46,647 bases of DNA from a virus. The DNA lies in IMG/VR virus record IMGVR_UViG_3300045927_000031, positions 1-46,647 of that record; one strand, 5' to 3'. Below, in pieces: positions 6,576-14,093 of the stretch (positions within the stretch are counted from its first letter, which is position 1; each line of letters begins with the position of its first letter). The translations under genes were made by a program, and so were the position numbers. Under the pieces are notes generated by a model. That model saw only the letters and a list, made by a program, of their open reading frames with translations, was not told the origin of the DNA and made no database searches.

Positions 6576-6820
6576 AGCGAACAAACCACTGGCGAAACCA
6601 GCAGCGTCGGGCGGCGGATCGCTGGCACGCGTGCGAAGTCTGCGGGGATGTCTATGGCTGCGATGAATGTTCTGAAGCCCTAACGAAAAGCCTGCGGCGA
6701 GTCGTCTCCGGGCGGAATCGCAGCGATGGAAGCGACAGTATCGCGCTCTATTCGCGGTCAGGGTGGGTTCATCCGTTTCTGTGTGACCAATGCCGGAAAA
6801 AGCGAAAGAGGTCGGCATGA
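6572..6820 (+). CDS. zinc-ribbon hypothetical protein
   Basis: The product is 82 residues with C-E-V-C-G (21-25), C-D-E-C (30-33) and C-D-Q-C (71-74), enough for one or two zinc sites, and a Lys/Arg-rich C-terminus. It is joined to both neighbours by ATGA overlaps. The nucleic-acid binding role is only a guess from its charge. Confidence 0.7.
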   Translation: MKRTNHWRNQQRRAADRWHACEVCGDVYGCDECSEALTKSLRRVVSGRNRSDGSDSIALYSRSGWVHPFLCDQCRKKRKRSA

Positions 6821-6897
6821 CCTCGCGCATTCTGCGCCTCGTCAACGGCTTACTTGCGCTGTACGGCATTGCTTGGGGGTTCCGGGAGTTACTGTGA
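6817..6897 (+). CDS. 26-residue membrane micro-protein upstream of methyltransferase
   Basis: The ORF is MTSRILRLVN..., with one hydrophobic helix and R-E-L-L at the end. AGAGG lies five bases ahead. Its start overlaps the upstream stop (ATGA) and its stop overlaps the GTG of the methyltransferase (GTGA). It therefore tiles the operon exactly and may serve as a coupling ORF or as a functional membrane peptide. Confidence 0.55.
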   Translation: MTSRILRLVNGLLALYGIAWGFRELL

Positions 6898-7616
6898 GGC
6901 CGCTCGCCATTGATCTCTTCTGTGGCCTTGGCGGCTGGACTGAAGGATTACTTGCAGAGGGTTATGACGTGGTTGGCTTCGATATTGAGCGGCGTCCGTA
7001 TCCGGCGCAGTTAGTGCTCCAGGATGTTTTAACGCTGCACGGCTCGCAGTTCAAAGACGCGGCGCTGATTGTGGCGAGTCCGCCGTGCCAGTTCTTCAGC
7101 TACATCGCGATGCCGTGGACCAGGGCGAAGCTGTTGGGCGCCGTTACGCGGCTGTGTCCCTTGCGGATTGCCAAGGAGCTCGAACTCTTCAAAGCGTGCT
7201 TCCGGATTCAGCGCGAAGCCTCGGAGGCGGCGGGGCATCACATTCCGTTGGTTCTCGAGAATGTGCGCGGGGCTCAACCGTGGGTCGGGCCAGCGAAGTG
7301 GAATTACGGATCATTCTATTTGTGGGGGGACGTGCCAGCATTGATGCCGACGACGTTTAAAGGCTTAAAGGTCCCCGGCTTCCGGTTCGACGGTTCGGGA
7401 GGCAGTTTTCAGACGGCTTCGGTGGAGTTAGTTGGAATTAAGGGGTCCGTAGGGTCTGAGCGGAGGCATCCGAACGCCCTGGGTTGGAAGATCCCGAGCA
7501 CGTCATCGCATTCACCCGCCCGCAAGCAAGCATCCGCAGAAATCGCGAAGATTCCATTCCCGCTCGCCAGGCACATTGCGTCGGTTTACAGGGAACAATA
7601 CGAAAGGAGTTTATGA
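6894..7616 (+). CDS. DNA (cytosine-5) methyltransferase
   Basis: The product is 240 residues. Motif I is D-L-F-C-G-L-G-G-W (7-15), the SAM site. Motif IV is S-P-P-C-Q (62-66), with Cys65 as the nucleophile. Motif VI is L-E-N-V-R-G (121-126). The protein is shorter than typical 300-400-residue enzymes, so the target-recognition part is small. No endonuclease partner lies beside it, so it most likely protects phage DNA from host restriction. GTG was chosen for the GGGAG ahead and the coupled upstream stop. Confidence 0.9.
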   Translation: MRPLAIDLFCGLGGWTEGLLAEGYDVVGFDIERRPYPAQLVLQDVLTLHGSQFKDAALIVASPPCQFFSYIAMPWTRAKLLGAVTRLCPLRIAKELELFKACFRIQREASEAAGHHIPLVLENVRGAQPWVGPAKWNYGSFYLWGDVPALMPTTFKGLKVPGFRFDGSGGSFQTASVELVGIKGSVGSERRHPNALGWKIPSTSSHSPARKQASAEIAKIPFPLARHIASVYREQYERSL

Positions 7617-12726: not shown

Positions 12727-12744
12727 GGATGCCTCCGGTTAGTC

Positions 12745-12750
12745 TAAATT
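12745..12750. repeat. TAAATT target-site duplication, left
   Basis: TAAATT touches the left inverted repeat and is repeated at 13908-13913 in the same orientation. Confidence 0.75.
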
Positions 12751-12773
12751 GGGGATTTATATACATAACTCCC
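12751..12773 (+). repeat. left terminal inverted repeat of cassette
   Basis: Begins GGGG and ends ACTCCC. It contains the stop codon of the dpdA-like gene. It differs from the right copy at two positions (6 and 17). Confidence 0.75.
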
Positions 12774-13398
12774 TAATGAGTTTCGGTTCATGGGTTTGCC
12801 AGTCATTGACTAGATACTCCATTCGGCGAATTCTCTCGACCGTCCACAGTGGAAAACTGGAGTCAAGTGAATCCGCCTGAATGTTAATCGCCTGTTTGAT
12901 TTTCGTCTCCGTGCCAGCTCTGGCGAAATGGAACCGCTTACAGTGAATTGCAGCCACATTTCGCCAGTCCTGAGCGTCACGTTTGAAGGCGTCCGTTCCT
13001 CCAAGAAATAGACCGTCGAAGTGGTGAATAACTTCCTCAACTTCCCATACCTGCATCCCGTCTTGAAGCGCCAAATACCAGGGCCAACCAGTCGGCAACT
13101 TGTCCAGCCATCGCATTGAAAATTCCAATGACTCGCGCCCACGGCCGACCAAATCAGGCACAACGGCCATGTACGGCGGATACGGCTGATCCATTGCAAT
13201 GTCGAGCGCATCTCGATACCTCTTTTCGTCAAATGGTCTGCCGTTCACCCAATCCAGATATGCCCCATTGTCAAAGCCGCTACGATGAAAGTTCTCGCGT
13301 GGCTTCGAGTAGACATACATCTCACCCCAACCGTGCAAGTCGCAGATTCTTCTCACAGATCGGGCAGGACGTTCGCCTACGAGAACTCTGATTTTCAT
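12757..13398 (-). CDS. dpdA: DpdA-like tRNA-guanine-transglycosylase-fold DNA modification protein
   Basis: The product is 213 residues. It has D-N-G-A-Y-L-D-W (43-50), V-V-P-D-L-V-G (79-85), L-A-L-Q-D-G-M (109-115), G-L-F-L-G-G-T-D-A-F-K (129-139), F-H-F-A-R-A-G-T (157-164) and A-D-S-L-D-S-S (175-181). This is the motif order of the short phage TGT-like enzymes. The DpdA family exchanges guanine in DNA for a preQ0-type 7-deazaguanine, which blocks many restriction enzymes. A queD-like gene lies in the same cassette, supporting the pathway. Only about 213 residues are present, and no CxCxxC zinc site of true TGTs. An ATG two codons upstream (13404) is an alternative start. Confidence 0.75.
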   Translation of the reverse strand: MKIRVLVGERPARSVRRICDLHGWGEMYVYSKPRENFHRSGFDNGAYLDWVNGRPFDEKRYRDALDIAMDQPYPPYMAVVPDLVGRGRESLEFSMRWLDKLPTGWPWYLALQDGMQVWEVEEVIHHFDGLFLGGTDAFKRDAQDWRNVAAIHCKRFHFARAGTETKIKQAINIQADSLDSSFPLWTVERIRRMEYLVNDWQTHEPKLIRELCI

Positions 13399-13559
13399 TT
13401 CCATATCCCGAGTTTCCGATTTAGCCGCTTGTCTTCCAGCAAACCTTCCCGAAATTTAGCGTTGTACTCCGCGATTTGTCGGCGGCAGTGATCGCAGGTT
13501 TTCCTATCAGGAGGGCAACCGCGCCACTTACATCGCGAGCAAATCGGTGGCTCTTTCAT
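13395..13559 (-). CDS. 54-residue zinc protein between dpdA-like and queD-like genes
   Basis: Cysteines at C7-x2-C10, C15 and C22-x2-C25 make a compact zinc site; the tail is basic and helical. It is coupled on both sides by ATGA overlaps. Because the DpdA-like protein lacks the usual TGT zinc site, a helper role is conceivable, but that is inference. Confidence 0.7.
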   Translation of the reverse strand: MKEPPICSRCKWRGCPPDRKTCDHCRRQIAEYNAKFREGLLEDKRLNRKLGIWK

Positions 13560-13870
13560 TCCGTCTCCACCCAGCCGCCATCGCCGACTTCAACTCGAAC
13601 GGTTAAGGGTCGCCGTGAGAACTGGTCGCGGAACCATAAGGCCAAACGCTCGGCAGTGGCCGGTTCTCCGATCACTGTTTCAAGTTGGCGGTGATCGACT
13701 TTGTATGCAATACGCTCCAATTCACGTCTTAGGTCCTCGAACGGAATGGCTCGCCCGTCAACGCCCAAGAAAGACTCGGCAATGACTATCACGCGATACG
13801 TATGCCCATGCAGTTCTGTTCTCGGCAACTGATGGGCGCAGTTAATCGTCTGCGAAACGGAAACCTTCAT
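13556..13870 (-). CDS. queD: QueD / 6-pyruvoyl-tetrahydropterin synthase-like protein
   Basis: The product is 104 residues of T-fold type. A-H-Q-L-P (12-16) and L-H-G-H-T-Y (20-25) supply the three zinc histidines. Then come V-D-H-R-Q-L (60-65) with the Asp-His pair and E-P-A-T-A-E-R-L-A-x-W with the pterin-holding Glu. QueD makes carboxy-tetrahydropterin on the way to preQ0. The usual catalytic Cys four residues before HGH is replaced by Arg17, and the loop there is short; Cys11 is the only nearby cysteine. FolE, QueE and QueC are absent, so the host must supply the other steps. The start is 15 bp inside the right inverted repeat. Confidence 0.75.
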   Translation of the reverse strand: MKVSVSQTINCAHQLPRTELHGHTYRVIVIAESFLGVDGRAIPFEDLRRELERIAYKVDHRQLETVIGEPATAERLALWFRDQFSRRPLTVRVEVGDGGWVETE

Positions 13871-13884
13871 CGTCGGCCTTCACA

Positions 13885-13907
13885 GGGAGTCATGTATATA
13901 ATTCCCC
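13885..13907 (-). repeat. right terminal inverted repeat of cassette
   Basis: The inverted partner of 12751-12773 (21/23). It supplies a TGA stop (13890-13892) to the gene entering from 14093. Confidence 0.75.
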
Positions 13908-14093
13908 TAAATTGCGTTGATAGATCCGCGTTCCATCGAGACTGAGGTACGCTTCGGTAAAGCGAAAGGCCGACGTGTTCCATAGGTGGATGTATTCGGC
14001 TGCGATCTCGCGAGAGATCCGACCTTGGCGCAGGAGTTCATCGACGCGACCAAGGGAAATCTGCTTAAGGTCGTCAATTGTTAGGGTTTTCAC
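13890..14093 (-). CDS. small hypothetical protein whose 3' end was replaced by the cassette
   Basis: The product is 67 residues from a GTG with GGAGG eight bases ahead. R-V-D-E-L-L-R-Q-G-R-I-S is an HTH-like or helical stretch. The last four residues (G-E-L-Y-T after N-L minus one) come from the inserted inverted repeat. Before insertion the protein would have ended N-L-D after 63 residues. No family is recognised. Confidence 0.65.
   Translation of the reverse strand: MKTLTIDDLKQISLGRVDELLRQGRISREIAAEYIHLWNTSAFRFTEAYLSLDGTRIYQRNLGELYT
13908..13913. repeat. TAAATT target-site duplication, right
   Basis: Same orientation and sequence as 12745-12750, directly outside the right inverted repeat. 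Confidence 0.75.

Follow-up and report, generated by a model that had tools for sequence, protein, structure and literature searches.

Gene content and organisation of the locus

The window, that is the whole 46,647-bp viral contig analysed here, carries at positions 12752–13906 an element of 1155 bp, the interior of which is filled by three ORFs, all on the minus strand, as the first-pass annotation had described. These encode a QueD-like protein of the PTPS family (P0002, 13556–13870, 104 aa; PF01242, E 5e-12), a small four-Cys protein (P0003, 13395–13559, 54 aa) and a DpdA-like protein with a predicted TGT fold (P0001, 12757–13404, 215 aa; phrog_15826). The element has 22-bp inverted ends (GGGANNTAYATACWTNASTCCC), with the left terminal repeat (GGGATTTATATACATAACTCCC) at 12752–12773 on the plus strand and the right terminal repeat (GGGAATTATATACATGACTCCC) at 13885–13906 on the minus strand, and is flanked by direct copies of CTAAATTG at 12744–12751 and 13907–13914.

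In a search for inverted pairs the repeats were detected as arms of 24 nt (12751–12774 and 13884–13907, 92% complementary, 1109 nt apart), for which zero chance matches were expected from the shuffled window. The first-pass annotation had drawn them at 12751–12773 and 13885–13907, with a 6-bp target duplication TAAATT, which indeed lies directly outside both arms as drawn there. The true ends start with GGGA (GGGA...TCCC) and the base just outside this differs among sister elements, which shows that the outermost drawn base belongs to the target; the repeats therefore measure 22 bp, and the 6-bp duplication was dropped in favour of the 8-bp CTAAATTG, of which TAAATT is the core. By itself, the end is imperfectly palindromic, with one arm scoring in both orientations.

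Upstream of the element lies a phage gene (13890–14306, minus strand, as listed; its true start is uncertain), of which P0005 is the C-terminal part, and downstream an 86 aa phage gene (P0004, 12466–12726, minus strand), relatives of which are found elsewhere without a cassette upstream. The insertion replaces the ...RNLD-stop ending of the upstream gene by ...RNLGELYT-stop inside the right repeat. An 8-codon leader ORF (ATG ACT CCC ... TGA, 13867–13893, minus strand) starts inside the same repeat. The leader and the upstream gene overlap by start and stop codon (ATGA), and the leader and the QueD-like gene overlap in turn, TGA with ATG. At the other side, the DpdA-like gene ends with ...RELCI-stop inside the left repeat. 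Judged from these stop/start overlaps, the insertion is predicted to be a workable operon insertion at this locus.

The first-pass annotation had also proposed a restorable empty site, and the predicted excision joint, CGC AAT TTA GAC TAA CC GGAGG CATCC ATG, can be read directly from the sequence. Searches of the viral collection with P0004 and P0005 found no actual empty site at this locus, this part of the proposal being borne out only for a sister element (see below). The only close relatives of P0004 and P0005 in that collection were those on the identical contig L024, more distant relatives of P0004 (46–51%) have unrelated upstream DNA, and no nucleotide match was found in cultured phages.

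Sister elements with the same ends

The first-pass annotation had suggested looking for other copies of the ends with different cargo, and these were found in many phages. A strict end pattern with 20 fixed bases matched 26 stretches in the viral contig collection, most of which contain a second, inverted copy at 0.3–2.5 kb and, as a rule, matching direct repeats outside the pair. A looser pattern in viral contigs and a similar pattern in bacterial genome contigs yielded further elements among the matches listed, and a complementary pattern variant gave 105 stretches. In a first catalogue, with the end set as GGGA...TCCC, 96 of 99 elements had a duplication of exactly 8 bp. Together, the searches identified at least 199 inverted end pairs within 5 kb, with an exact 8-bp direct repeat in 135 of the 199 pairs listed, as opposed to an identical 8-mer in only 8 of 15,006 pairings when left and right flanks were swapped between elements. 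The duplications are AT-rich and roughly palindromic, with C, A or T at position 1 and G, T or A at position 8.

At least 123 distinct elements had exact 8-bp duplications; 54 of these contain an IS1595 transposase and 69 contain cargo only (viral contigs: 31 with and 60 without transposase; bacterial contigs: 23 with and 9 without). As the ends served to collect the elements and the duplications to select them, these numbers count intact elements and are biased towards intact, recent insertions. Transposase-less, passenger-bearing derivatives that can be moved by a cognate transposase are known as mobile insertion cassettes (MICs; PMC3129680, PMC3913671), and we use this term for the cargo-only elements.

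Some contigs contain two different MICs (L110, 1658–2462 and 11961–12588; L345, 462–779 and 3749–4336), and the two on L110, one with a methyltransferase gene and one with a mom gene, have different target duplications. The element at L008:1437–2575, like those on L025 and L027, has good ends; in place of direct copies, its two flanks carry an inverted repeat (gcgaaaaaat / attttttcgc). In many contigs of two single genomes, Acidobacteria WH2.bin123 (L138, L140, L151, L156, L159, L162 and others) and Sphingopyxis indica DS15 (L160, L166, L172), the end pattern lies approximately 70–130 bp from the contig ends, which would fit a high-copy element at which the assembly broke.

About 90% of the ends carry an in-frame stop codon (TGA or TAA), most of them beside an ATG or TTG. 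With crude gene calls, 17 of 27 MIC insertion points were located between ORFs; among random points this share was 16%, and among AT-rich random points 32% (p = 0.0009 versus the latter). A general, orientation-selected operon joint was not supported, as the direction of the cargo was unbiased on the same crude gene calls (co-directional with co-directional neighbours in only 7 of 12 cases).

The associated transposase belongs to the IS1595 family

The transposase family using these ends, a search for which had likewise been suggested, turned out to be IS1595 (ISXO2-like). The transposases of the sister elements are about 305 aa in length, combine a PF12760 zinc ribbon with a PF12762 DDE_Tnp_IS1595 domain (E 2e-39 to 6e-47), and exceed the NCBIfam cut-off for IS1595 (NF033547). 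Members of this family usually generate 8-bp duplications and encode one transposase with an N-terminal zinc finger (PMC8101967), in agreement with the duplications and zinc-finger transposases of the sister elements. The transposases associated with these ends are diverse, and viral and bacterial sequences are mixed on the transposase tree with at least five well-supported changes, which rules out a virus-only lineage and indicates that the transposase passes between viruses and bacteria. The ends in the window may match the ISNwi1-type end. Matches to the IS1595 transposase in the phage collection were limited to three unannotated fecal phage contigs (34–37%).

The 46,647-bp contig encodes no transposase, as already noted in the first-pass annotation, and specifically none of the IS1595 family. 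Since the transposase is present in sister elements and absent from the window, the window element is non-autonomous, and its mobilisation would have to occur in trans. Two MIC-bearing contigs (L048 and L078) also encode an IS1595 transposase elsewhere on the contig.

At least 24 elements (for instance on L010, L021, L101 and L103) have, next to the transposase, a conserved Lys/Arg-rich ORF of about 45 aa (LDxIADxVLAYRPKPKSKxAKKRKRR). This ORF survives in the MICs on L009, L173 and L355, and possibly encodes an accessory transposition protein.

Evidence for movement

The near-identical phage contigs L109 and L015 (98.8% over 673 bp) differ by one MIC. Contig L015 contains two tandem MICs with one target copy between them (core TATATT), whereas L109 has only the second, and its joint at the position of the missing 605-bp first MIC is a clean empty site at which one target copy is kept. 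A full, transposase-bearing element is shared by L021 and L124 with 3 mismatches in 1563 bp (99.9%) at unrelated sites, where the duplications differ (CATACCAA and TAATATAT). Four pairs of MICs (L005/L323, L028/L083, L071/L197 and L127/L354) are 71–83% identical over the full length of the cassette, again with different duplications and unrelated flanks. Shared MICs at different sites, together with the empty site, show that cargo-only units move; how recently they did so, and with which enzyme, we infer.

Cargo of the cassettes

The MICs are compact (median 540 bp), and most hold one ORF whose start lies no farther than about 60 bp from one end and whose stop codon lies no farther than about 37 bp from the other, in some cases inside the end itself. 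DNA-modification genes are strongly over-represented. Among the 69 MICs, 44 have an ORF of ≥100 aa, and at least 21 of these carry such a gene, while at least one of 100 similar-size ORFs from neighbouring phage DNA belonged to a methyltransferase family among the 25 families listed, with 11 more families beyond these (Fisher p about 4e-12, or about 5e-9 if five control matches are assumed). Some of the 21 MICs are related to each other, and hence represent fewer independent captures. Their cargo comprises N6/N4 methyltransferases (L009, L039, L075, L110, L118, L119, L369 and L382), C5 methyltransferases (L066, L325, L360 and L366), Dam-type proteins (L127, L351 and L354, with L127 and L354 just below the Pfam cut-off), D12 adenine methyltransferases (L368 and L371), Mom (L003, the second MIC of L110, and L373, which is below the Pfam cut-off and strong in PHROGs), and the DpdA/QueD pair of the window. 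Some full elements also contain methyltransferase and HNH genes.

Four further MICs (L023, L072, L144 and L334), and also L008, carry PAPS-reductase-like genes, which have at most faint similarity to DndC and could function in sulfur-based modification of DNA or nucleotides. A small cargo protein (HYRNGREAKNGDKI...) recurs in the MICs of L059, L071, L197, L015 (1624–1911) and L357, and another (MSLGAWG...DGDID) in those of L005 and L323; both are candidate anti-restriction or counter-defence proteins. The window itself contains a C5-methyltransferase-like gene at 6726–7616 on the plus strand, with a weak match to TIGR00675, which lacks cassette ends and by eye is much like the cargo of the MICs on L066 and L325, suggesting that one type of gene circulates both inside and outside of cassettes.

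Predicted function of the window cargo

The first-pass annotation had described the element as a deazaguanine-modification cassette. As a statement on function this is weak. P0001 is supported as a DpdA-like protein by its sequence and predicted fold; it is 32% identical to mycobacteriophage proteins annotated as DpdA-like and retains the invariant D/PD/Q.G/GG/H/R/D positions of the DpdA family. A structural model of P0001, predicted with an alignment of 25 viral relatives (pLDDT 86.5), had TIM barrels as best PDB matches, mostly tRNA-guanine transglycosylases, so that the protein combines a predicted TGT-like fold with sequence relatives named DpdA-like. Pairs of neighbouring queD and dpdA genes also occur on L290, L301 and L307, where they lack these cassette ends, and none of the relatives L264–L314 has these ends nearby. 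As the pair exists outside of cassettes, it was probably captured by the window cassette.

The description fares less well for the other components. P0002 lacks the catalytic-Cys segment before HGH, which is present in the QueD neighbours on L290, L301 and L307, and falls below the NCBIfam QueD cut-off, while neither QueC nor FolE was found in the 46,647-bp contig. Of the preQ0 synthesis genes that accompany DpdA (FolE, QueD, QueE and QueC), FolE, QueD and QueC were covered here, and the window offers a Cys-less QueD-like protein only. Singleton DpdAs do exist, and the singleton-DpdA phage Orion is reported to lack such modification (PMC6884629). For these reasons deazaguanine modification by the window cargo is to be taken as a possibility. 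The more specific proposal that the cassette inserts a 7-deazaguanine (preQ0-type) base into phage DNA from a host-made precursor, and thereby defeats restriction, is compatible with a mobile cassette; the sequence and fold of P0001 and the queD-dpdA pairs speak for it, and with the Cys-less P0002, the missing QueC and FolE and the example of Orion on the other side we regard it as tentative, with the balance leaning slightly against it.

Interpretation and relation to known systems

We consider it very probable that the element at 12752–13906 is an IS1595-family mobile insertion cassette, consisting of cargo only and moved in trans, and the sister elements support the first-pass proposal of a transposed cassette with terminal repeats and a target duplication that lacks a transposase. 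The IS1595 transposase would come from the host, from a prophage or from a co-infecting phage with a full element, and the cassette would insert at AT-rich positions, duplicating 8 bp of the target in a staggered manner. Here it came to lie where a small phage gene ends, flanked by two genes of the same direction. The cargo may be retained as a protection of phage DNA against restriction.

An imperfect palindrome with start and stop codons useful at gene junctions is also what ordinary regulatory operators, bound by a dimer, or phage promoters around an operon might look like, in which case TAAATT would be coincidental. This has next to no probability, as inverted pairs have exact 8-bp duplications that differ by element at a frequency (135 of 199) far above that of swapped flanks, 54 of the 123 listed elements enclose a transposase, and a sister element has left a clean empty site; the duplications and the empty site refute it. 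Alternatively, the window element could be a dead relic, which lost its own transposase by internal deletion and is now immobile. The MIC on L009 still has a weak transposase-like trace and the Lys/Arg-rich ORF usually found behind the transposase, which indicates that some MICs arose from full elements through deletions. In the window, however, the ends are intact, the interval between them is taken up by the three cargo ORFs and no remains of a transposase were detected, and transposase-less MICs of the same kind occupy different sites, so that cargo-only forms do move; we therefore consider a relic unlikely. For a mobile cassette, a wider proposal has in our view an even chance of being correct: phages may draw on a common pool of one-gene cassettes, mobilised in trans and rich in modification genes, which move by their IS1595 ends in the way that integron cassettes move by attC sites. 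With stop and start codons (WTRA) contained in its ends, a cassette at a gene boundary would end the preceding gene and could couple translationally to it.

The window element shares with known MICs, such as MIC231 of Bacillus cereus and mic-qnrD, its paired inverted ends, the target duplication, passenger genes in place of a transposase and a cognate transposase encoded elsewhere, here in elements with common ends. Those MICs are found on bacterial chromosomes and plasmids and belong to other IS families, whereas the ones described here have IS1595-type ends, lie mostly on phage contigs and have modification-rich cargo. IS1595 insertion sequences (ISPna2, ISH4, IS1016, IS1595, ISSod11, ISNwi1 and ISNha5 groups) share the PF12762/PF12760 transposase of the sister elements, 8-bp duplications and ends beginning with GG, and differ from the window element by having a transposase. 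Integron gene cassettes, too, are compact mobile units of one gene each that come from a common pool, in their case by means of an attC site and an integrase; with paired terminal repeats and a DDE transposase on the side of the window, the likeness is a functional analogy only. The mycobacteriophage mobile elements MPME1/2 are also very small elements of phage genomes with short inverted repeats, and to our knowledge have no DNA-modification cargo. They measure about 439 bp with an unexplained 6-bp addition on one side (PMC3029335), in contrast to the 1155 bp and the 8-bp duplication on both sides in the window.

Neither phage-borne IS1595 MICs nor MICs with DNA-modification genes were found in the literature searched, with subscription papers and preprints outside that search. 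MICs and IS1595 are already known in bacteria, including mobilisation in trans, so the new mode of spread envisaged in the first-pass annotation is new for phage DNA-modification genes and not new altogether; as far as the searched literature goes, both the phage setting and this cargo are undescribed. Illegitimate or homologous recombination is the usual explanation for the gain of anti-restriction genes by phages. The cassettes provide such genes with a definable transposition route. Its ends and transposase family are known and its bias in cargo is clear, so that the exchange of modification genes among phages, prophages and bacteria becomes traceable site by site and testable. The ends of the cassettes are also a simple search handle for anti-restriction and possibly counter-defence genes among the uncharacterised cargo of the remaining cassettes.
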